A stretch of 36,562 nucleotides of DNA, taken from an uncultured Akkermansia sp. Lineage in GTDB: Bacteria > Verrucomicrobiota > Verrucomicrobiia > Verrucomicrobiales > Akkermansiaceae. Of the stretch, positions 3,527 to 36,134 are shown piece after piece (the first letter of the stretch is position 1; the number at the start of each line of letters is the position of its first letter). The position numbers and the translations under genes are program-made. Location of the stretch: NCBI GenBank assembly GCA_947588735.1, contig CANQAD010000016.1, forward strand, positions 1-36,562, written 5' to 3'. The notes below the pieces were generated by a model. The model did no database searches, was not told where the DNA came from, and was given only the letters and a program-made list of their open reading frames with translations.

Positions 3527-3766
3527 CAGGGCAAACGCCCTTGAAAGAAGCTCATCAACGGAGAAGATGCTCTTGTTGGCTGATATTATCGTTGGTACGC
3601 ACCAAAAATGATGACAACAAGCAGTCATCATGATGATAGCTCCCAAGACCTCTCCTGCATACGCTCATGATTCAAAAAACAGCTCAACGCTCACATTATC
3701 AATAAATCGCAATTAGTCAATCGTTAATTGCAAATGAAAATCGTATCACCTCATGCGGTTTCCCTG
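3527..3766 (+). mobile_element. 240-bp MITE-like element, copy B
   Basis: The ends are CAGGGCAAACG and CGGTTTCCCTG (inverted repeat with one mismatch over eleven bases). It is flanked by ACCGATGAAT (3517-3526) and ACCGATAAAT (3767-3776), a 10-bp target duplication with one change. It has the same length and order as copy C (23113-23352) but is more diverged, especially in the right-end hairpin. There is no open reading frame, so it would depend on a transposase encoded elsewhere. Confidence 0.8.
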
Positions 3767-11312: not shown

Positions 11313-12098
11313 TTAAATCATCTTATGTTTATCCGTCAACTCAATCTTACTGAGGATGTAACAGACGGAAATCGGCATCATAAGTCCATTTGCGCAATGT
11401 CCTAAAACCTGATCTGTTGCAGGAAAAACGTCATGATGATTGGAGAGATATCTGATAATACCCACATCATGGACAATTCTTTGGAAATGTTCCCCATTGA
11501 AGGCAGAACTATGATCAAACATATACAAGTCAAGTGTTATAGATGGATATTTTGCTCTCAATTCATGCATTACGCGGAGCACTTGCGATGTTTCCAGAGG
11601 CATGTTTCGCCGTTGATCAGCCATATTATTCATATAGACCAGTAATACGCTGTTGCTTGCTTTGATGAAATTAAGAGTACGCATGAATCGGCGAGCGTAC
11701 TTTTCTTTAATTTGCGGGAACTGTTCATCTAAAGAAGATTTCGCACTAAAATCGTGAAGGTAGTAAGTTCTAGTCCGCTCGTTGTAGTAGACTCCCTCAA
11801 CATTGGTGTCTGGATCTCCTGCCTTTTTGCCATTTGTTTTAATAGCCTCATTACACCAATCCATATAAAGATCTTGTTTGTACGAGCTAAAAGGGACAAA
11901 ATCCCTCTTGTTGAAGTAGTTCCCAAAACCCTTATATAAACACTCAATTCTTCCGTAAACGGTTTCCCGGTGTGCTGTTCCACTCCAATCCCATGGTCCA
12001 TCAATAATTTTCAACCCATTATTTGCCAATAAGGCAGTCGTGTGGCAGAAACGACCCAAGGAAATAATAAAATCGTACTTTTTTTTAAAGTCTGGCAT
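11313..12098 (-). CDS. DUF1796-type putative papain-like cysteine peptidase
   Basis: This is a 261-residue cytosolic-looking protein. The N-terminal pattern YDFIISLGRFCHTTALL...GPWDWSGT fits the DUF1796 family (putative papain-like cysteine peptidases), with Cys near residue 17 as the candidate nucleophile. His residues in YYLHDFSA and FDHSSAF are possible partners. Members are common in polysaccharide and glycosyltransferase clusters, but their activity is not established. I use the ATG at 12098 because AAAGGAG lies eight bases upstream; the start overlaps the stop of the preceding GT8 gene as TGATG, so translation is coupled. It is the last gene of the glycan operon. The DUF assignment is from memory of the N-terminal motif. 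Confidence 0.65.
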   Translation of the reverse strand: MPDFKKKYDFIISLGRFCHTTALLANNGLKIIDGPWDWSGTAHRETVYGRIECLYKGFGNYFNKRDFVPFSSYKQDLYMDWCNEAIKTNGKKAGDPDTNVEGVYYNERTRTYYLHDFSAKSSLDEQFPQIKEKYARRFMRTLNFIKASNSVLLVYMNNMADQRRNMPLETSQVLRVMHELRAKYPSITLDLYMFDHSSAFNGEHFQRIVHDVGIIRYLSNHHDVFPATDQVLGHCANGLMMPISVCYILSKIELTDKHKMI

Positions 12099-13234
12099 CA
12101 ATCCATCTCCTTTCTTTTGATTGTCATGAGTGTTAACTTGTTAAATAATCTGTATTTTCTCTTCAGCCGACGATCGCATTCTATTCTGAACAACGGAAGA
12201 AAGCCCAACAACCGGTAGGATATCTTGCAGGCCCTGGCACCTCGCGCTGTAGTAGTGCATGATCCAAGGGAGTCATCCATGGCACTTTGTGCTCCGATGA
12301 CACATGTTCGTGAGCTTTCGTACTTCCTGAAATCTGCCATCTGCTTTTCCAGAAAGTCATTTTCCAGTGATTGGCAAAAAGGTGTTAGGGAAGCAAAAAA
12401 CCACCAATCATTAAACTGATCAGAACAACCCTTATTCTCAAGGTCACTGTACAAATAAACCTGATTCCAAGGTTTATTACCAGCAAAACGACGCACCACA
12501 AGACCATTTTTCAGCCGTAGCAGTTCGTCTGTTTTTCCTCTTCTCAAGCAATCAAGGAAGGCTCGATCCGTGGCGTTGTATACGGCATCCAGTTCTTTGT
12601 AGTTGTTTGCAAACAACTTGTTTAACGGATCCTGAGCCGGGTATTGTGTAATCCCTATGTACGCATCACATAACAACAGGAGCCTTTCGGCGATTCTCTG
12701 CTGTCGCCATTGCCTACAATCCATGACTAGCACCGCAGAGGAGAAGTAGCGATGCTCGGAAGGCAAACGCAGATAAGCAATATGGCTTCGTATCTTTTCT
12801 CCCCATTCCCTATCTTCTAACCAGTACTCATGTACCGCTGCCGTGGAATACCCCTCCATATCAGTTTGGTATAGTTTTATGATGTCATCTAAGGCAATCA
12901 CATCAGTATCCAAGTAGATGATTCGATCGAGCTCTGGCAATAGTTCAGAAGCCAAAGATCTTCCAAATACATGGAAGGGAAGGCTTTGTATCTGCTGCTT
13001 GGTACGAGTGGGAGTTAAAGAAGCTGTCACATCCACAAAAGTGACAGTGTAAGTTGGAAAACTCCGCTGAATCCAAGCAACAACAACCTTCTGTAAACCG
13101 CGAGAAATTGTTGTATGCAGCAAATAAAAATCAACAGGAACAGAGGATGTATATGCAACACTCGCTATTGTTACGCAGGCGTAGCGCAGATTGTTCTCAT
13201 CACAGCACAAACAAACAGGAATTTTATGTATCAT
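12098..13234 (-). CDS. Family 8 glycosyltransferase with altered metal-site motif
   Basis: This is a 378-residue GT-A fold retaining glycosyltransferase of family GT8, which adds sugars such as galactose or glucose to lipopolysaccharide-type or capsular acceptors. It has the N-terminal VCLCCDENNLRYACVTIASV, the metal-binding DTD (residues 109-111 in IIYLDTDVIAL), and FSSAVLVMD. The normal C-terminal HxxGxxKPW, whose His helps bind the metal, appears here as RFAGNKPW: Arg replaces His and one residue is missing. Activity may therefore be changed. An extra ~70 residues after the catalytic core are basic (RLKRKYRLFNK) and could bind membrane. It starts one base after the stop of the upstream GT8 gene, and no Shine-Dalgarno is seen. 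Confidence 0.85.
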   Translation of the reverse strand: MIHKIPVCLCCDENNLRYACVTIASVAYTSSVPVDFYLLHTTISRGLQKVVVAWIQRSFPTYTVTFVDVTASLTPTRTKQQIQSLPFHVFGRSLASELLPELDRIIYLDTDVIALDDIIKLYQTDMEGYSTAAVHEYWLEDREWGEKIRSHIAYLRLPSEHRYFSSAVLVMDCRQWRQQRIAERLLLLCDAYIGITQYPAQDPLNKLFANNYKELDAVYNATDRAFLDCLRRGKTDELLRLKNGLVVRRFAGNKPWNQVYLYSDLENKGCSDQFNDWWFFASLTPFCQSLENDFLEKQMADFRKYESSRTCVIGAQSAMDDSLGSCTTTARGARACKISYRLLGFLPLFRIECDRRLKRKYRLFNKLTLMTIKRKEMD

Positions 13235-13235
13235 A

Positions 13236-14144
13236 TTACCAGAATTTTTTACTTTGAAATTTCATTTTTAGTCCTTCGTGAAAAGGCGTCATAGCGGCAT
13301 AATACCAAAACTGGTCGAAACTTAATGTCTTACAGCGATAATCATTATATATTCTCTCATTGTACAACCACGGTTTCATGGGCCCCTCAAAGTGCCGAAC
13401 GATACAATCCCACTTTTTGTACGGCAACCCTTTAAACTCTTCCGGACATTCTATGAGAGTGGCAATGTTAGAATTGAGCAAATTGTACTCAGTGCCAATG
13501 ACTTTGTAGTTATTATCAAAGTATTTATTAAGAAGATCCTGCTCTACATACTTCAGCTTCTTCTTATACCTTCGATGAATCTCAAATAATTTTTCTGTAA
13601 TATTTTGCTCGCGCCACTTTTCGCAGTCTAATAACAAAACCCCTGCGTTGAAATACTTTTGGAGCATCTCCGTGGAAAGATCCATATAGTTTTGACCTTT
13701 GGCCAAGCAATCATTGATCATGTAGTTGTCTGGTACACCTGCCAGAGCATACCCTTCCATATCTATATCTATCATGTTTTGCAAATCGCCCAAGATAATA
13801 ACATCGGCGTCCAGATTCACAGCTTTCGTAATATGTGGTTGAAGCTGCGGAATAAGAATTCGTGCATAAGTAGTATTGCTCCAGTAGGGAGCCGCCTTGA
13901 AAGAGGAAGCCGTACGAAATGAGGCGAACGCGACCTGCATATCCACGTCCATGAATTCTACATCAAAATTTTCAAATTTCTTTTTCATGGATTCAATTTG
14001 CCGTCTCGTGAAGGAATTCACAGGATCTCCGATGATATAAAAGCGCAAAAATGAGTTCGTATTACTGCACGCACTCGCTATAAGAACTGCGATATATGGC
14101 GCGTAGCTCTCATCCCCTGATACAAATATAGGTATTTCTTTCAT
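13236..14144 (-). CDS. Family 8 glycosyltransferase
   Basis: This is a 302-residue GT8 enzyme. Seen are IPIFVSGDESYAPYIAVLIASA at the N-terminus, the metal-binding DAD (residues 112-114 in AVNLDADVIILGD), FNAGVLLLDCEKWRE, and a complete HFEGPMKPW near the C-terminus. It is the intact partner of the next gene, which has lost the His of that motif. GGAGA lies ten bases before the ATG. It follows the epimerase by 7 bp and precedes the second GT8 by 1 bp, so these genes are translated from one mRNA. It likely transfers a hexose or hexuronic acid to a surface glycan; donor and acceptor are unknown. Confidence 0.9.
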   Translation of the reverse strand: MKEIPIFVSGDESYAPYIAVLIASACSNTNSFLRFYIIGDPVNSFTRRQIESMKKKFENFDVEFMDVDMQVAFASFRTASSFKAAPYWSNTTYARILIPQLQPHITKAVNLDADVIILGDLQNMIDIDMEGYALAGVPDNYMINDCLAKGQNYMDLSTEMLQKYFNAGVLLLDCEKWREQNITEKLFEIHRRYKKKLKYVEQDLLNKYFDNNYKVIGTEYNLLNSNIATLIECPEEFKGLPYKKWDCIVRHFEGPMKPWLYNERIYNDYRCKTLSFDQFWYYAAMTPFHEGLKMKFQSKKFW

Positions 14145-14151
14145 AGTAAGC

Positions 14152-15147
14152 TTATCTCCAAAAGGAATATAACTGGCGAGTCATTTCATAATCTATGCTT
14201 TTAACGGGGCGATCTGGCTGAGTAAGGGCCCATTCAAACATCCTGTTGACTGTATGTTCGAGGTTAGTGGCATCTTTGAAATTAAGTAGTTTCTTAGCCT
14301 TATCATGGTTGCAGAATGCAAATTTTGCTTCATGCCGCGGTTCTAAGAATTGAAGATCTGGATTAAATCCGAAATTATGGGCGCAATCTCGTACCAAGTG
14401 TGCGGTCTCCAAGATTGTTCGTTCTTTGTCGGCACCAAGATTAAAAATCTCGCCGCTGTAATCGTACATTACCTTCTCAAAAGGCTCGTAGTAGAAATCA
14501 ACATCTGAGAATGCACGGGTCTGCTGCCCATCACCGAATATTGTCAGGGGTTCATTATGGATTGCCTTACGTATCCAAATACCTATGACATTCCTGTATC
14601 GATCCCACAAGTTTTGATAGATACCTACAATGTTATGCGGGCGGATAATAGTATATGAAAGACCGAACTGCTCGTGCGCAAGTTTCAAATCCATCTCTAC
14701 AGCATACTTGGCAACGCCATATGGATCTAAAGGTTTCGGCTGCATATCCTCCGTAAATGGTGGTATGTTTTCTCGACCATAGGTTGCCATGGATGACGTG
14801 AAGATAAATTTTTTCACATCGTAGTTGAGAGAGGAGGTGATCAAATTAGCCGAACAAATTAAGTTATTTGTATAGTTGTACTTGCGAATAAACGGGCTCA
14901 ATCCTTCTGCAGCGTACGCGGCAAAGTGGTAAACGTAGTCGGGTCTCTGCTCTCGAAAAAATTGATCTACAGCCTCAAGGTCTGCCAAGTTGATGTTGAG
15001 ACATTGGACTCCTTCCGCCAAATTTTCCCTGTACCCTCCGGAAAAATCATCTATACCAATGACTTCATATCCACGTTTCAACAGATGCCTTGAGAAATTG
15101 CTGCCAAGCAGCCCAGCTATACCAGTGATTAATACTTTGGATTTCAT
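14152..15147 (-). CDS. NAD-dependent nucleotide-sugar epimerase/dehydratase
   Basis: This is a 331-residue extended short-chain dehydrogenase. The N-terminal VLITGIAGLLGSN binds NAD, the catalytic pair is in DPYGVAKYAVE (YxxxK) with SSMATYG supplying Ser/Thr, and IRPHNIVG and TRAFSDVDF are typical of UDP-glucose/UDP-glucuronate 4-epimerases. Next to UDP-glucose dehydrogenase it probably acts on UDP-glucuronic acid or UDP-glucose, but the exact product cannot be told. I choose ATG 15147 (MKSKVLITG); the frame opens three codons earlier only with TTG. It lies 21 bp after the dehydrogenase stop. Confidence 0.85.
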   Translation of the reverse strand: MKSKVLITGIAGLLGSNFSRHLLKRGYEVIGIDDFSGGYRENLAEGVQCLNINLADLEAVDQFFREQRPDYVYHFAAYAAEGLSPFIRKYNYTNNLICSANLITSSLNYDVKKFIFTSSMATYGRENIPPFTEDMQPKPLDPYGVAKYAVEMDLKLAHEQFGLSYTIIRPHNIVGIYQNLWDRYRNVIGIWIRKAIHNEPLTIFGDGQQTRAFSDVDFYYEPFEKVMYDYSGEIFNLGADKERTILETAHLVRDCAHNFGFNPDLQFLEPRHEAKFAFCNHDKAKKLLNFKDATNLEHTVNRMFEWALTQPDRPVKSIDYEMTRQLYSFWR

Positions 15148-15168
15148 AGATGTCAAGTAATAAGGTAG

Positions 15169-16443
15169 TCAAAATGAGGATCCTGTGAGGGACATGGTAA
15201 ATCGCAAGTCCATGATGCGAGACGTATTCATAATCATTTTAAGCTTTTTTAAATCGGGAGATATGAAGTCATCCCATCCGGTCAAGATAACCAACATATC
15301 TGCTCCCTGCGCGGCGGCTTCCTTGTTTGATGCGTATTTGATCGAATCTCCCAGCAACTTGTGAGCGTTCTGCATCGCCTTTGGATCATAGGCAACTACA
15401 GTAGCGTCTGAATGAGTGATGATGTATTGTATGATTCCGATAGCTGGGCTTTCACGACAATCGTCCGTTCCCTCCTTGAAAGCCAATCCCCAAATCGCTA
15501 TACGAGGTCTTTGAATATCCTCAACAGACTTTAATATTTTAATTGCCATCAACTTACGACGTTCTTCATTACCCAAAATTGTAGAGCGAACAAGGGAGAG
15601 GTTTATGCCATGTTTACGCGCCATATGTAGCAAAGCTTTTGTGTCCTTTGGAAAGCAGGAGCCTCCGTAACCCGGACCCGGTTGAAGGAATGCTGAACCA
15701 ATGCGCGTATCTGCGCCCATGCCTCGTGACACTTCATGTATGTTAGCGCCTGCAGCTTCGCATAAATCGGCCATCTCATTGATATAGTGAATTTTCATCG
15801 CCAAGAATGCATTGGAGGCGTATTTAATGAGCTCGGATGAGCGGCGCGATACGAAGAGCATTTTCGGAGCAGGGCTCAGGGGTGCATACATTTCACGGAT
15901 GAGAGAACGCGCCTTTTCGCTCTGTGTACCGACAACAATACGTTTCGGGTGGAAGAAGTCGTGCACAGCGTAACCCTCGCGCAGGAACTCCGGCAAACTG
16001 ATAACCTCCGCTTGCACTCTTGGGTTCGTTTTGCGAATGAATCTTTCGACTTCATCGCCTGTCCCAACTGGTACGGTGGACTTGATCGCTATAACAGTTG
16101 GAGCCTCGAGCTTTTTTGTCACCTGTTCCACTGCAGCAAACAGATAAGATAGATCGGCTTCGCCAGTGCGAAGATTTTCCGGCGTTCCCACTGCGATGAT
16201 GATAACCTGTGCTCCCCGGACAACCTCCTTCTCTATCGAGCAAGTGAAGTGCAAATGCCCAGATGTCATCCCAGACGTCAGCAACTCCTCGAGACCTTTC
16301 TCGTAAAGCGTTACCTTCCCCGCTTTTAGTGTTTCTATTGTATCCTTGATGCAATCAATGCACGTCACATCATGTCCAAGACTCGCCAACCCTGCACCTG
16401 TGGGGAGCCCCACGTATCCCGTTCCTATAATAGCTATTTTCAT
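15169..16443 (-). CDS. ugd: UDP-glucose 6-dehydrogenase
   Basis: This is a 424-residue enzyme that oxidises UDP-glucose to UDP-glucuronate with two NAD+. The N-terminal Rossmann loop is IIGTGYVGLPT (residues 5-15). The central part has the substrate-binding LPEFLREGYAV, where many homologues have NPEFLREG. The catalytic Cys is at about residue 263 in GPGYGGSCFPKD, and GLAFKEGTDDCRESPA marks the C-terminal UDP-binding domain. The length is normal for the 400-450-residue bacterial type. It supplies uronic-acid precursor for the glycan made by the neighbouring transferases and the epimerase. A 159-bp gap separates it from the GT2 gene upstream, so an extra internal promoter is possible. Confidence 0.95.
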   Translation of the reverse strand: MKIAIIGTGYVGLPTGAGLASLGHDVTCIDCIKDTIETLKAGKVTLYEKGLEELLTSGMTSGHLHFTCSIEKEVVRGAQVIIIAVGTPENLRTGEADLSYLFAAVEQVTKKLEAPTVIAIKSTVPVGTGDEVERFIRKTNPRVQAEVISLPEFLREGYAVHDFFHPKRIVVGTQSEKARSLIREMYAPLSPAPKMLFVSRRSSELIKYASNAFLAMKIHYINEMADLCEAAGANIHEVSRGMGADTRIGSAFLQPGPGYGGSCFPKDTKALLHMARKHGINLSLVRSTILGNEERRKLMAIKILKSVEDIQRPRIAIWGLAFKEGTDDCRESPAIGIIQYIITHSDATVVAYDPKAMQNAHKLLGDSIKYASNKEAAAQGADMLVILTGWDDFISPDLKKLKMIMNTSRIMDLRFTMSLTGSSF

Positions 16444-16602
16444 CTTGTATCAAATATGTTATAGATCATAATATTGAGAAATAATGCCAGTGAAAACTGG
16501 ATAGCGTCTGCCGAGGACAACGAGAATAGTGTTGGCCGCGTTGACGTAAAGGGGGAGCATCTTCACCGGCTCGCGCCCATAGGCTCTGAGGTGAACTCGC
16601 TC
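16444..16602. other. Gap inside the glycan operon
   Basis: This is 159 bp between the GT2 stop and ugd. The half nearest ugd is AT-rich. The other half is GC-richer than the flanking genes and carries no frame I recognise, possibly a remnant of a lost gene. A weak promoter for ugd is possible near 16450-16480. Confidence 0.3.
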
Positions 16603-17610
16603 TCATAACAGCCCCCGGGTTATAAAACAAAACAGTTTCCATTTTAGTGGAAAGTTAAAAAAAGAACCAAGTCTGGAACACAACAAAGCATATTGCCCAC
16701 GCACGGTGCGAATTTTGTAGAAGTGTTTTTTTATCTTACTTCTAAAGGCATTCTTTAAATCTTTCTCAGTATACCCTTGATGACTAATGTTTTTCAGCAA
16801 GCTTTTTATGTCCTCTAATAACGCATCCAGCTCTTTGGGAGATAGAGCCTGTACACTGAAAAATCTTTGCCAAATTTTTTTATTTTCGAGTTTTACACAG
16901 CAGTATTTCTCAATGGCGTTAACTTGTGCTAATCCACTTTTTTCAATCTGCAATTCTCTGCGAGAATACGATATGCTTGCAGAATGGTTCCTGTACAAAG
17001 TCAACACCTCCGGCAAGACTGCAAACTGAGTGTATCCCATAAGTTCTAACCAGAGTGCATAATCTTCTGCCGGTACGTATGCGGGATCATAACGGAGGTT
17101 ATTTCTATCAAGTATTGATTTACGCAACATGACGCTAGATTGACAAAGCACACACCCTGTAAAAAGTAGTTTGAATGGTATGTCTGAGACTGGATTGTAA
17201 GTGATAGCCCCTCGCCGTTTTCCAATTTCCCTGACTGCTGTTCCTATGCACCCGATATTGGGGTTATTAATCAAAAAACTCAGTTGTCTTGCAAGACGAT
17301 CCGGCAGTGAGATATCATCGGAATCCAAGAAAGCTATTATCTCTCCCGCTGCTCTGTCTATGGCATAGTTACGCGCAATAGCCGCACCAGACTTTTCATC
17401 AAGTCTGAAATATTTGAGCCTTTCATCCATGTAACAATCAACTGTCTCTCTGACGGAAGGAATGGAGCAGTCATCAATAACGAGAAGTTCGAAATTTTTA
17501 TACGTCTGCGAGAGGATACTTTCGATGGCTTCACAAAAGTATTTTCTCTTCGTATTGTGAACAGGCATGACAACAGATATCATTACCTCTTGTTCCTTCT
17601 CAATATCCAT
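16603..17610 (-). CDS. Family 2 glycosyltransferase
   Basis: This is a protein of up to 335 residues with a GT2 (GT-A, inverting) domain: ISVVMPVHNTKRKYFCEAIESILSQTYKNFELLVIDDCS, then GAAIARNYAIDRAAGEIIAFLDSDDISLPDRL with the DSDD metal motif, then PAEDYALWLELM with the catalytic-base region ED. The start is uncertain: the ATG at 17610 adds nine residues (MDIEKEQEV), whereas the ATG at 17583 gives the family-typical start MISVVMPVHN and has AAGGA and AGAGG upstream. It is the first gene of the leftward glycan operon, 71 bp from the inverted-repeat pair that frames its likely promoter. It probably transfers a sugar to a growing surface polysaccharide. The C-terminal ~100 residues are basic and helical. 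Confidence 0.88.
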   Translation of the reverse strand: MDIEKEQEVMISVVMPVHNTKRKYFCEAIESILSQTYKNFELLVIDDCSIPSVRETVDCYMDERLKYFRLDEKSGAAIARNYAIDRAAGEIIAFLDSDDISLPDRLARQLSFLINNPNIGCIGTAVREIGKRRGAITYNPVSDIPFKLLFTGCVLCQSSVMLRKSILDRNNLRYDPAYVPAEDYALWLELMGYTQFAVLPEVLTLYRNHSASISYSRRELQIEKSGLAQVNAIEKYCCVKLENKKIWQRFFSVQALSPKELDALLEDIKSLLKNISHQGYTEKDLKNAFRSKIKKHFYKIRTVRGQYALLCSRLGSFFNFPLKWKLFCFITRGLL

Positions 17611-17684
17611 GTCCGTGCTGCTCTCTTCTCTTTATCTTGGAACTAATATCAGAATAATTTCTCTCCCTAACGGGGTGTTGGTAT

Positions 17685-17703
17685 ATCTCTTTTCGAAAGA
17701 GAT
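17685..17703 (+). repeat. Left inverted repeat of the putative invertible promoter segment
   Basis: The sequence ATCTCTTTTCGAAAGAGAT is the exact reverse complement of 17853-17871. It is itself a near-palindrome, with the stem extended to 12 bp at 17681-17707 around a TCG centre. Confidence 0.85.
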
Positions 17704-17763
17704 ATACAGGCAACATGCACATAATTAATTCATAATTAGTATGATGCAGCAATTGAAGTACAG

Positions 17764-17792
17764 ATTATCGATCGGTTGCTCTATCCAAACAA
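17764..17792 (-). promoter_or_regulatory. Promoter inside the inverted-repeat segment, pointing at the glycan operon
   Basis: On the minus strand TTGTTT (17787-17792), 17-bp spacer, GATAAT (17764-17769). It reads toward the GT2 gene. I found no comparably good promoter on the plus strand of the 149-bp segment. If the segment inverts, this promoter would point away from the operon. Confidence 0.5.
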
Positions 17793-17852
17793 GCAATGGT
17801 CACTTTCACATAAAATTCTTTATTTTCTTAATTTTTACATTTTGGTATTGAC

Positions 17853-17871
17853 ATCTCTTTCGAAAAGAGAT
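17853..17871 (-). repeat. Right inverted repeat of the putative invertible promoter segment
   Basis: The sequence ATCTCTTTCGAAAAGAGAT pairs exactly with 17685-17703. Compared as direct repeats the two match at only 16 of 19 positions; the 3-bp core (TCG versus CGA) defines the inverted orientation. Centre-to-centre distance is 168 bp. Confidence 0.85.
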
Positions 17872-17872
17872 G

Positions 17873-18000: not shown

Positions 18001-18028
18001 TTGCCAATTTTTTCGGGGGGTGTATAAT
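18001..18028 (+). promoter_or_regulatory. Promoter of the pdxA unit, leaderless type
   Basis: TTGCCA (18001-18006), 16-bp spacer with a G6 run, consensus TATAAT (18023-18028), eight bases before the ATG at 18037. Confidence 0.7.
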
Positions 18029-18036
18029 GGCGGCGG

Positions 18037-18273
18037 ATGAAATCGTTTTTGGGAGCATTGATACTGACGATTACGGTGAGCGCTGCTGTCATCACAATGG
18101 TATATCATACCTCGGTAAATGCCGAATTACGCTTTGAGCCGCGTGATTCACATGAGGAATACATCAACACACGCCGCTCGTACAGACCGCGTCACATCCA
18201 GAATGTACCGACACCACCTGTGAGAGATCTTGAGCTCCATGATGACGATACGGCGGAGGAGGTAAATCCATGA
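18037..18273 (+). CDS. Small single-pass membrane protein upstream of pdxA, unknown
   Basis: This is a 78-residue protein: one N-terminal hydrophobic segment (about residues 4-24, LGALILTITVSAAVITMVYH) followed by a polar, charged tail with Arg/Asp/Glu and Pro (RSYRPRHIQNVPTPPVRD). The topology suggests a membrane-anchored domain in the periplasm, or a signal peptide. I do not recognise the family. Its stop overlaps the pdxA start as ATGA, so the two are translationally coupled. A consensus TATAAT promoter lies eight bases upstream of its ATG, which supports it as a real gene. Confidence 0.6.
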   Translation: MKSFLGALILTITVSAAVITMVYHTSVNAELRFEPRDSHEEYINTRRSYRPRHIQNVPTPPVRDLELHDDDTAEEVNP

Positions 18274-19160
18274 GTGCGTCTCCACTCCCCGTTATCGGCT
18301 ACACCTTGGGAGACCAGGCAGGCATCGGTCCGGAAATGATGCAGCTCGCCCTGCGCGAGATGGAAGGAGAGCCCGCGCGTTTTCTTTGCATGGGCAGACG
18401 CATCACTTGCTCCCCCGGCATTCCCACGCCAGAAACCGCACAAGCAGCCTGGGATCAACTTGAATGCGCAGCCCAAGCCTTGCGCGATGGAGCAATCGAT
18501 GCAGTGGTTACGGCTCCCGTCTGCAAGCAAAGTCTGCACGATATTGGTTTTTCTTATCCCGGGCAAACGGAATTTTTTGCAGAATATCTTGGCGCTAAGC
18601 GATATGCAATGTGCTTATCTGGGGAACATCTGACCGTTGCGCTCTGCACGACCCACGTGGCTCTGCGTGATGTTCCGGGAATGCTCACTGCGCGACAAAT
18701 CGTGAATGTGGGCGAACTGCTGGCTGAATACCTGCTCCGTCTCGGTCTCGCTCACCCACGCATCGCTGTGGCAGGGCTGAACCCGCACAACGGCGAAGCC
18801 GGCTCGTTTGGAGATGAAGAGATGCATATCATCGCTCCGGCGGTGGAAGAACTACGCCGCCGACTGCCGCACGTCCGCATCTACGGTCCCTGCGTGCCAG
18901 ACAGCGTGTATCGCGACGCCTCTCGCGGAGAGTACGATGGCGTTGTGGCGCCATACCACGACCAAGCGCTCATACCACTTAAGCTGCTGGACTTTGATCG
19001 GGGGGTGAATATCACCTTGGGACTCCCCGGGCTTCGCGTCAGTCCGGATCACGGCACAGCCTTCTCCTTGGCGGGGAAGGGACAGGCCAATCCCGGCAGT
19101 ACCATTCAAGCTTTTCGTCTTGCCCTGAGATTCGTCCGCTCAGCAGTTGCCAAAGCATGA
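18270..19160 (+). CDS. pdxA: 4-hydroxythreonine-4-phosphate dehydrogenase
   Basis: This is a 296-residue enzyme of the DXP-dependent pyridoxal phosphate pathway; it oxidises 4-phosphohydroxy-L-threonine with NAD(P)+. Visible are GDQAGIGPEM at the N-terminus, TAPVCKQSL, SYPGQTEFFAEYLG (GHTE in most homologues), VAGLNPHNGEAGSFGDEE, APYHDQALIPLKLLDF and SPDHGTAF. The metal-binding histidines are in TTHVALRDV, YHDQ and DHGTAF. It is shorter than the usual ~330 residues, mostly at the N-terminal third. An excellent GGAGGAGGT lies six bases before the ATG, in contrast to the leaderless first gene of the unit. The 3' end overlaps the convergent eno gene by 21 bp. Confidence 0.93.
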   Translation: MSASPLPVIGYTLGDQAGIGPEMMQLALREMEGEPARFLCMGRRITCSPGIPTPETAQAAWDQLECAAQALRDGAIDAVVTAPVCKQSLHDIGFSYPGQTEFFAEYLGAKRYAMCLSGEHLTVALCTTHVALRDVPGMLTARQIVNVGELLAEYLLRLGLAHPRIAVAGLNPHNGEAGSFGDEEMHIIAPAVEELRRRLPHVRIYGPCVPDSVYRDASRGEYDGVVAPYHDQALIPLKLLDFDRGVNITLGLPGLRVSPDHGTAFSLAGKGQANPGSTIQAFRLALRFVRSAVAKA

Positions 19161-20420
19161 TTCGCCTCCCATCATTTCTTCAATGCGCAAAAGCTCGTTG
19201 TACTTGGAAAGCCGATCGGAACGAGAGAGCGAGCCTGCCTTGATATATCCGGCGCCCGCCCCCACAGCCAGATCGGCAACAAACGGATCCTCCGTCTCCC
19301 CGCTGCGGTGGGAAACGATGGTCGCATAAGCATGTGAATTAGCAAGCCGCAGAGTCTGGAGCGTTTCCGAAAGAGTGCCGATTTGATTCGGCTTAATCAG
19401 CACAGCGTTGGCAACTCCCTGCAAAAACCCCTGTCGCAGAATGCGCGGGTTCGTTACAAAAAGATCATCCCCCACCAGCATGCAACGCTTACTCAAGGCG
19501 CGGGTAAGCTCTTGCCAACCTGCCCAATCGGATTCCGCACATCCGTCCTCAATGGAAATAATGGGATACCCGGCAATGAGCTGCGTATATTGGGCAATGA
19601 GATCTCGTGCAGACATGGCGCCGCCTCCACTCTTGCGCAGGGTGTACAGGCGCGTGTCCGGATTGTAAAATTCACTGGCGGCTACATCCAAAGCGAGAAA
19701 CACATCTTCCCCCGGACGATAGCCGGCGCGAGAGATGGCGGTGAGAATAACGTCCAATGTAGCTTGGACACCGGCCAATGCAGGCGCATATCCTCCTTCA
19801 TCACCCACAGATGTACTCATCCCTTTGGAGCGTAACACGTCCCCCAGCGCATGAAACACCTCGCTACCGCATCGTAACGCCTCGTGAAAGTTTGGCAACC
19901 CCTTCGGTACAATCATGAATTCCTGAAAATCGATCGGTGCATCAGAATGAGCGCCGGCATTGATGACGTTCATCATGGGCACAGGGATACGACCGGCTCC
20001 AACCCCGCCCAGATAACGAAACAGAGGCAAGTGTACAGCTTTCGCCGCGGCACGTGCTATCGCAAGCGACACCGCAAGCACAGCGTTTGCTCCCAGATCG
20101 CTCTTTTGAGCCGTGCCGTCCAACTGGATCATCCGCCGGTCGATTTTTTCCTGCTGCAACGCATCTTCACCCAGTAAAACCGTCGCAATGGCGTCTTTCA
20201 CATGCTCCACGGCCATGAGCACTCCCCTGCCCGAGAAACGTTCGCGCTCACCATCGCGCAATTCGTGCGCTTCCTGGCTGCCGGTGGATGCGCCACTGGG
20301 CACCGATGCGCGTGCAAAGATGCCGCTTGCCAAATGCACCTCTGCCTCCACTGTGGGATTGCCACGCGAGTCGAGAATCTCGCGAGCCGTCAAATGAGTA
20401 ATCTGTGTTCTGCTGCCCAT
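19140..20420 (-). CDS. eno: Enolase
   Basis: This is a 426-residue glycolytic enzyme that converts 2-phosphoglycerate to phosphoenolpyruvate. Motifs in order are the N-terminal ITHLTAREILDSRGNPTVEAEV, the ASVPSGASTG loop, NVINAGAHSDAPIDFQEFMIVP, SVGDEGGYAP, IISIEDGCAESDW, VGDDLFVTNP, LIKPNQIGTLSET, VSHRSGETEDPFVADLAVG and GSLSRSDRLSKYNELLRIEE. The catalytic lysine of KPNQ and the metal Asp/Glu residues are present. I start at ATG 20420 (MGSRTQ) because TTGCAT-17-TAGGCT ends eight bases upstream; the frame is open further up. The 3' end overlaps convergent pdxA by 21 bp. Confidence 0.95.
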   Translation of the reverse strand: MGSRTQITHLTAREILDSRGNPTVEAEVHLASGIFARASVPSGASTGSQEAHELRDGERERFSGRGVLMAVEHVKDAIATVLLGEDALQQEKIDRRMIQLDGTAQKSDLGANAVLAVSLAIARAAAKAVHLPLFRYLGGVGAGRIPVPMMNVINAGAHSDAPIDFQEFMIVPKGLPNFHEALRCGSEVFHALGDVLRSKGMSTSVGDEGGYAPALAGVQATLDVILTAISRAGYRPGEDVFLALDVAASEFYNPDTRLYTLRKSGGGAMSARDLIAQYTQLIAGYPIISIEDGCAESDWAGWQELTRALSKRCMLVGDDLFVTNPRILRQGFLQGVANAVLIKPNQIGTLSETLQTLRLANSHAYATIVSHRSGETEDPFVADLAVGAGAGYIKAGSLSRSDRLSKYNELLRIEEMMGGESCFGNC

Positions 20421-20428
20421 GGACGCCC

Positions 20429-20457
20429 AGCCTAGCACAGCACAGAAAAATATGCAA
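20429..20457 (-). promoter_or_regulatory. eno promoter, leaderless type
   Basis: On the minus strand TTGCAT (20452-20457), 17-bp spacer, TAGGCT (20429-20434), eight bases to the ATG at 20420. Confidence 0.6.
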
Positions 20458-20494
20458 GAGAATGACAACTAATAGTTAGCAATATAAAGAGATC

Positions 20495-23098: not shown

Positions 23099-23112
23099 TA
23101 TAGATTTCCCCC

Positions 23113-23352
23113 CAGGGCAAACGCATTTGAAAGAAGTTCATCAACGGAAAAAATGGCCTTGTTGGCTGATATTATCGTTGATACGCATCATAAAATGACA
23201 ACAAGCAGTCATCGTGATGATGGCTCTCAAGAACTCTCCTGCCTACGTTCATGATTCGAAAAAAACTGCGCAACGCGCACATGATCAATAAATCGTAATT
23301 CGTAACTCGTCAATCGTAAATAGCAACCGCATTTCCTAATGCGGTTGCCCTG
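23113..23352 (+). mobile_element. 240-bp MITE-like element, copy C (best preserved)
   Basis: The ends are CAGGGCAAACGCATT and AATGCGGTTGCCCTG (inverted with one mismatch in 15). It is flanked by GATTTCCCCC at 23103-23112 and 23353-23362, an exact 10-bp duplication. The right third has a heptad array and a hairpin built from CAACCGCATT/AATGCGGTTG. It has no coding capacity. It is the same length as copy B, and the right flank is also used by the second element family. Confidence 0.85.
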
Positions 23353-23361
23353 GATTTCCCC

Positions 23362-29122: not shown

Positions 29123-29364
29123 CAGAGCAACCGCGTCAGAAAGTGCGGTTGCCATGGATGATTCTCAATTTTTGATTGACGATTTGTTGATAACGCGCGC
29201 ATTGCGCAGTTTTTCCCCGAATCATGACCGTATGCAGGAGGGGTCATTAGAGACATCATCGTGATGATTGCCTGTCGTCATGATCTTTGATGCGTGTCAA
29301 CAATGATATCAGTCACAAGAGCATTTTCTCCGTTGATGAACTCATCTCAAATGCATTTGCCCCG
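29123..29364 (-). mobile_element. 240-bp-family MITE-like element, copy E, reversed
   Basis: Reverse-oriented 242-bp copy: it starts CAGAGCAACCGC (right end of the family) and ends AATGCATTTGCCCCG (left end). The flanks GGGGCCTGTG (29113-29122) and CGGGTTTGTG (29365-29374) agree at seven of ten bases, a worn target duplication. Its right 23 bp lie inside the M16 peptidase reading frame. Confidence 0.75.
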
Positions 29365-35351: not shown

Positions 35352-35507
35352 ATCTTTAGTTTGTTAATAAAAATGAGATGTTACTCTTCTGAAGCACGAG
35401 CCCATCTCGGAAAAGCCCGTGCACCATTGTTGTGGCGAAGTGTTTCATGAGCTGCGTTACGTTGCCAGCTCGAAAAAATTGTGATATTGCGATAACATCC
35501 TTCATAT
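35352..35507. other. Intergenic region with small hairpins
   Basis: This is 156 bp. An imperfect hairpin near 35393-35423 (GCACGAGC with GCCCGTGC) and a 6-bp stem GAGCTG/CAGCTC near 35447-35470 are seen. They may end transcription of the HAD gene, though no T-run follows. Confidence 0.3.
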
Positions 35508-36134
35508 TTACTCTAGGTTTCTAAGAATTTCTTCCGGCGAGCTGGCATAACCCGGAATGTTACGGAAACCAAAGCCGTAGTTGACACCGAGGAATTGGAC
35601 ACCAGCGGCTTTGGCTGTCTGTTTGTCGCCCTCGGTGTCGCCAATCATCACCACGGAGGAGGGATCAATAATTTCCAGCTCTTTCAAACACTTCTTGATG
35701 AGGTCAGCCTTTGTCAACTTGTTTTCATTGTCCGCACCGATGATAGGAGAGCAGTAAGTATCTAATCCGAAGTGTTCGCAAATTTCTGTCGCATAATCTT
35801 GGCGTTTATTCGTGGCTATCGCCTGCTGAATGCCTGCCTTATCCAAGCTTGAGAGAACATCCTCCACGCCGGGGTACAGAAACGCTTTAAAGAGATCGTG
35901 TGACTTATAACGTTCGCGGAAAATATCTGCGGCATGTTGTGCGTCTTCCTCATTCAGACCGAAATGAGTCATGAAAATGGTCTGCGGTGTGGGTCCGATG
36001 TACGACCTTAGCTCCTCATCCGTCTTGGAGGGTAAGTGACACTGTTCGACGGCATAGCGATATGCTGCCGTTAAACCCTTCTGCGTGTCTAACAGCGTAC
36101 CGTCAACATCCCAAATCACTGCTTTAACTCTCAT
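35508..36134 (-). CDS. HAD-superfamily phosphatase (phosphoglycolate phosphatase-like)
   Basis: This is a 208-residue HAD hydrolase. Motif I is VIWDVDGTLLDT (nucleophile Asp and acid Asp), motif II TNKR, motif III Lys in ENKLTKADLIKK, and motif IV VVMIGDTEGDKQTAKAAG. The helical cap lies between residues about 15 and 80, as in Gph/PGMB-type enzymes. The start codon overlaps the 3' end of the aldolase-like gene by 11 bp, so the two are coupled. Beside such aldolases it probably dephosphorylates a small sugar or keto-acid intermediate of a surface-glycan building block rather than phosphoglycolate; that is inference. Confidence 0.88.
   Translation of the reverse strand: MRVKAVIWDVDGTLLDTQKGLTAAYRYAVEQCHLPSKTDEELRSYIGPTPQTIFMTHFGLNEEDAQHAADIFRERYKSHDLFKAFLYPGVEDVLSSLDKAGIQQAIATNKRQDYATEICEHFGLDTYCSPIIGADNENKLTKADLIKKCLKELEIIDPSSVVMIGDTEGDKQTAKAAGVQFLGVNYGFGFRNIPGYASSPEEILRNLE

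Follow-up and report, generated by a model that had tools for sequence, protein, structure and literature searches.

A pair of inverted repeats lies just ahead of a surface-glycan operon in an uncultured Akkermansia sp., and the locus raises the question of whether these repeats bound a DNA segment that is inverted to switch the operon and, if so, where the switched promoter lies. The stretch of DNA analysed, hereafter the window, comprises 36,562 nucleotides (GCA_947588735.1, contig CANQAD010000016.1, positions 1 to 36,562) and belongs to an assembly that is 89% complete (G000). The original prediction was an invertible promoter in its ON orientation, with two operators for a single regulator as the alternative. 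The best explanation overall, to which we assign a probability of roughly 0.8, is that 17685-17871 is an inverton module with a split promoter, in which recombinase-driven inversion would turn the operon ON or OFF.

The repeats and the neighboring genes

The sequence confirmed the predicted geometry of the repeats, which are exact 19-bp inverted copies separated by 149 bp, as well as the two 3-bp cores between 8-bp arms. The left recombination site (17685-17703, plus strand) reads ATCTCTTT-TCG-AAAGAGAT and the right site (17853-17871, minus strand) reads ATCTCTTT-CGA-AAAGAGAT, the same core inverted; from start to start they are 168 bp apart. Four matches to the site with at most three mismatches were found in the window, compared with a mean of 0.03 in 100 window shuffles. 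The putative invertible segment (17704-17852, 149 bp) is delimited by these repeats, and sister modules in which the interior is reversed while the flanks are conserved support the assignment. Neither Rfam nor tRNA scans gave any match in the window.

All genes of the operon, as called by mechanical ORF prediction, are on the minus strand. The first encodes a family 2 glycosyltransferase (16603-17610; PF00535, E=9e-31), and its ATG at 17610 is 74 bp beyond the left repeat, a slight correction of the 71 bp given originally. It is followed by genes for a UDP-glucose/GDP-mannose dehydrogenase family protein (15169-16443; PF03721, PF00984, PF03720), an NAD-dependent epimerase/dehydratase (14152-15156; PF01370, E=1e-47), two family 8 glycosyltransferases (13236-14144, PF01501, E=1e-48; 12098-13234, PF01501, E=7e-30), and a DUF1796 protein that is probably the last of the operon (11313-12101; PF08795, E=6e-10). 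On the other side of the module, pdxA (18270-19160) is preceded by the promoter-like sequence TTGCCA-16-TATAAT (18001-18028, plus strand; 11/12 match), and with this sequence of its own it would not need the switch. The pdxA-enolase block (18020-20479 in the window, 7731-10190 in L089) is reversed relative to its right neighbor in G016, where an inverton also adjoins it. A dispersed repeat of about 240 bp occurs at 3532-3766, 23112-23353, 29123-29354, and 35375-35648 of the window and is shared with another G000 contig (L069).

A genome-wide family of sites

Further copies of the site were sought in the genome, as had been proposed, and each strand of G000 was found to hold 35 exact matches to ATCTCTTT-nnn-AAAGAGAT, the left site of the window among them; the reversed control gave 0. 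About two dozen modules of two or three sites are present in this rabbit-gut Akkermansia. Two-site modules have spacings of 155-171 or 333-335 bp, three-site modules have spacings of about 157 and 127-143 bp, and a spacing of 279 bp also occurs among sister modules. The cores were identical and inverted in all 52 distinct two-site modules (partner shuffling: mean 19.8, maximum 31 in 10,000 trials), although module counts are not fully independent because some modules are homologous.

Sister modules precede giant proteins that start with MKLHLP, a restriction-modification methylase, and other genes. One complete MKLHLP protein has 3,150 aa and an autotransporter domain; autotransporters near invertons are known in A. 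muciniphila (PMC11892184). Three-site arrays, in which two sites are in direct orientation and the third is inverted relative to them, were seen in C2, C3, C4, C5, C8, C24, C28, C35, and others of G000. They stand before the giant MKLHLP proteins, and more than two states are possible for them.

Close pairs of the site were detected in 56 stretches of the GTDB genome collection (84,980 species), all but one of them from rabbit-gut ('Lapin') MAGs with the label Akkermansia; the exception is in a bin named Acetatifactor. This exception (L140) carries a three-site module, originates from a rabbit sample, and is probably a misbinned Akkermansia contig. Among 76 Akkermansia species searched, the exact site is present in 14 and absent from 62. 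In genomes of the rabbit clade, exact sites of the new motif number 2-37, and those of the CGGATT motif found in other Akkermansia number only 0-9. A further inverted pair, TACGTATT-nnn-AATACGTA, whose members are 155 bp apart, is located at G000:C9:26385-26558 (L068 12386 and 12541). It has TTGAC one base from one site and may represent a third specificity built on the same plan. No third inverton family was found in the inverton-poor relatives G001 and G072, of each of which about 400 kb was searched.

A proposed promoter split across the recombination site

The junctions of the segment point to a promoter that would be assembled by inversion. TTGAC at 17848-17852 lies directly against the right site, and these last five bases of the segment, together with the first base of the site, form the putative -35 element TTGACA (17848-17853, plus strand), which now faces away from the glycan operon. 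On the operon side, the last base of the left site and five flanking bases form the putative fixed -10 element TATACC (17680-17685, minus strand), which lacks the last T of a -10. The hexamer TGTATA (17703-17708, minus strand; 3/6 match) occupies the present -35 position of the operon. At present, the junctions give TGTATA-17-TATACC (7/12) in the direction of the operon and TTGACA-17-TGATCA in that of pdxA. Inversion would create TTGACA-17-TATACC toward the operon (10/12), the best minus-strand promoter match in the inverted orientation. Because of this difference in match, the assembled orientation is predicted to be OFF and the inverted one ON, which reverses the state originally assigned.

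In the proposed mechanism, 17704-17852 would be inverted by a tyrosine recombinase whose gene is at another place in the genome, with crossover at the two 19-bp sites. The -35 element would be carried at one end of the segment, the -10 element would stay outside it, and the recombination site itself would serve as the 17 bp between them. Inversion would swap the hexamer that faces the fixed -10, from TGTATA now to TTGACA afterwards, and RNA polymerase would presumably use the TTGACA and TATACC boxes.

The same arrangement recurs among sister modules, most of which have TTGAC or TGGAC against the site at one interior end. Of 55 nonredundant modules, 33 have a TTGAC-like pentamer (at least 4/5) flush with the site at one interior end, compared with 0-8 at other offsets; about one third of modules are without it at the exact position. 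Outside the site, TAnnnT, in the register of the last site base plus five flanking bases, was found on the gene side of 32/45 modules and on the other side of 5/45 (p=7e-9), and only at this exact register. After similar flanks were removed, the counts were 26/38 and 5/38 (p=1.5e-6). The spacing between the -35 and -10 positions is exactly 17 bp. Where the gene side is clear, the model predicts the ON state for 18 modules and the OFF state for 24. De novo motif discovery in the interiors recovered TTGAC/GGAC at one end and, less strongly, a CTTATTATAAA element close to the opposite end. Elements resembling CTTATTATAAA are weakly conserved in many modules, approximately 26-36 bp from the site at the end opposite TTGAC.

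The split-promoter hypothesis was developed on the same modules as the first counts, and CGGATT-type invertons of other Akkermansia are a more independent test. Exact TTGAC lies against the site in 12 of 18 of these and at no other offset. In a second CGGATT set, it is found at exactly one end in 33/45 and at both ends in 0/45. CGGATT invertons show less of a -10 bias, with a TA start in 15/21 versus 5/21 (p=0.005) and no significant result for TAnnnT. A promoter split across the site thus appears well supported statistically.

The conserved bases might instead be read by the recombinase. In that case inversion would be real, TTGAC and TAnnnT would be recognition bases, and the promoter would lie elsewhere. 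Recognition does extend past the 19 bp, since position +4 counted from the site is a conserved C (0.88-0.92) on every side. A recognition element should, however, be symmetrical, and TTGAC marks one interior end only. Moreover, TAnnnT tracks the gene side and not the site, and the same TTGAC stands beside a differently sequenced site in CGGATT invertons. This explanation is considered unlikely.

Many known invertons carry their entire promoter within the segment. The originally proposed promoter, TTGTTT-17-GATAAT, would be of this type, facing the operon with the present state ON. Both hexamers are indeed present in the segment at the right spacing, but their match is only 8/12, which is the chance level for interiors of this family. 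Across 52 modules, matches of the interiors to sigma-70 hexamers had a mean of 8.37, compared with 8.36 for shuffled DNA, and sigma-70 promoters inside the segments were rejected as a candidate. A promoter scan of the window region at a threshold of at least 9/12 found none facing the operon. An internal promoter also leaves the fixed positions of TTGAC and TAnnnT unexplained, and we regard it as improbable. The segment may still contain an internal promoter of an unrecognised kind.

Evidence for inversion

The split-promoter switch presupposes that the segment inverts, and sister modules provide direct comparisons. Between G000 C2 and G016, the flanks are 99% and 93% identical over 600 bp, and the interior is 90% identical but reversed. 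Several module pairs within genomes also combine conserved flanks with opposite interiors, and both orientations of sister modules exist between species as well as within genomes. For the window module itself, one orientation is seen, and no homologue with its own interior was found in related genomes. Another rabbit Akkermansia (L118) carries genes that are 91.5% identical to 15171-17580, and the inverton ahead of them differs in interior and core. A site is located within 6 nt of a contig end 4 times, compared with 0.036 expected. Such breaks are expected if both orientations coexisted at assembly, and contigs may also break for other reasons.

Matched cores, inverted alleles at homologous loci, and contig breaks at sites uphold the predicted phase switch before a surface-glycan operon, and experimentally proven A. 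muciniphila invertons of the same design support it further. From the sequence comparisons, the identification of the window module as an invertible phase switch that controls this operon is strongly supported, and we infer that the window copy itself flips.

The many copies of the module could also suggest a MITE, a small transposon-like element with the sites as terminal repeats. Three pairs from different species (L080/L149, L094/L137, and L078/L146) that share flanks and have an entirely different interior and core fit this idea as well; in these pairs whole switch cassettes seem to have been replaced between species. However, most interiors show no relation to each other, a given interior can lie either way round between unchanged flanks, and modules are positioned where surface genes begin and carry a flank signature on the gene side, all of which makes a MITE very improbable. 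Two operators for one regulator with DNA looping, which the palindromic sites and a spacing equal to 16 helical turns would suit, can be rejected as scarcely credible, because the cores and their orientation are not free to vary (52/52), interiors are inverted between conserved flanks, and the 168-bp spacing is not constant among sister modules (155-171, 127-143, 279, and 333-335 bp).

Candidate recombinase

As stated originally, the window holds no recombinase, with no PF00589 match on its contig. The suggested search of the genome identified 12 tyrosine recombinase genes or fragments in G000 and no match to the serine recombinase domain PF00239 in this 89% complete assembly. When the C8 recombinase was used as query, the 12 site-bearing genomes were exactly the best 12 of 59. 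A 24-member tyrosine-recombinase clade (SH-aLRT 99), which has at least two subgroups, contains proteins of site-bearing genomes only. Among 17 further genomes, which were outside the clade definition, two site carriers have close relatives (51-72%); in the other 15, the best reached 53% over part of the protein with a far weaker score. This clade, present in all site-bearing genomes searched and seen in none of the others, is a candidate for the enzyme. Because its correlation with the site also follows phylogeny, the correlation nominates the enzyme and does not prove it. A sequence-based search for a solved structure of the recombinase gave no match.

The candidate recombinase genes themselves have a CGGATT-type inverted pair at or immediately before their start (L170 1340-1534 and homologues in L171-L174, L178, L179, L188, L210, L211, L298, and L299). 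In the majority of copies inspected, TTGAC is oriented toward the recombinase, whereas a TATAAT-like flank is oriented away from it. Control of the recombinase gene by its own CGGATT inverton via a split promoter is therefore not put forward.

Novelty and implications

Novel here are a second site motif confined to the rabbit clade, a recombinase clade that matches it, three-site arrays, and the split-promoter reading. No paper describing a promoter split across an inversion site was found in the literature searched; the 'Akkermansia promoter motif' of Jiang 2019 may already include the TTGAC element. It is likely that Akkermansia uses a split promoter in which the site is the spacer and the -35 is swapped before a fixed -10, and that the rabbit lineage re-specified the site at dozens of loci with this geometry kept, alongside a new tyrosine-recombinase clade.

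If the split promoter is true, the switch state of every such locus could be predicted from sequence in any assembly, and capsule and autotransporter states could be read in metagenomes. The A. muciniphila capsule switch would gain a precise mechanism to test. The constant 19-bp length of the site despite changing arms would also be explained, as 17 bp plus a shared A and T. The joint change in site motif and recombinase clade provides a natural experiment in recombinase specificity.

Comparison with known systems

Akkermansia invertons with the inverted-repeat motif CGGATT..AATCCG are known (Jiang 2019, as cited in PMC13343947) and constitute group 138 (PMC11892184). Inversion before the A. 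muciniphila capsule locus tracks capsule state (PMC13343947). The window family resembles these invertons in its 8+3+8 palindromic site, matched inverted cores (45/45 in CGGATT modules), spacing of about 167 bp between sites, position before surface-glycan and autotransporter genes, and TTGAC against one interior end; the window itself has both the 8+3+8 site and the TTGAC. The family differs in its arms, which in the window are ATCTCTTT/AAAGAGAT and not CGGATT/AATCCG (ATCTCTTT instead of AGCGGATT), and in its three-site arrays before giant autotransporters. In MucT (G073), the cps1 capsule switch has sites at 2526108 and 2526275, 167 bp apart, and wza starts at 2,526,716. Since TTGAC is at the far end of this capsule inverton in the reference, the model predicts OFF for the reference orientation.

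Mpi-type capsule switches of Bacteroides use a serine recombinase and carry the promoter inside the segment. The window shares with them a putative promoter segment that is bounded by inverted repeats and would control surface glycans; it differs in the lack of a PF00239 match in G000 and in a promoter that appears not to lie inside the segment. The fimS/FimB-FimE and Hin systems also have two inverted sites and are turned ON or OFF by inversion, with the promoter entirely inside the segment. Each is a single locus, whereas the window family is genome-wide. Promoters at insertion-sequence circle junctions likewise join a -35 and a -10 across a recombination site, but these junctions form by excision and circularisation, whereas the window switch would operate by reversible inversion.
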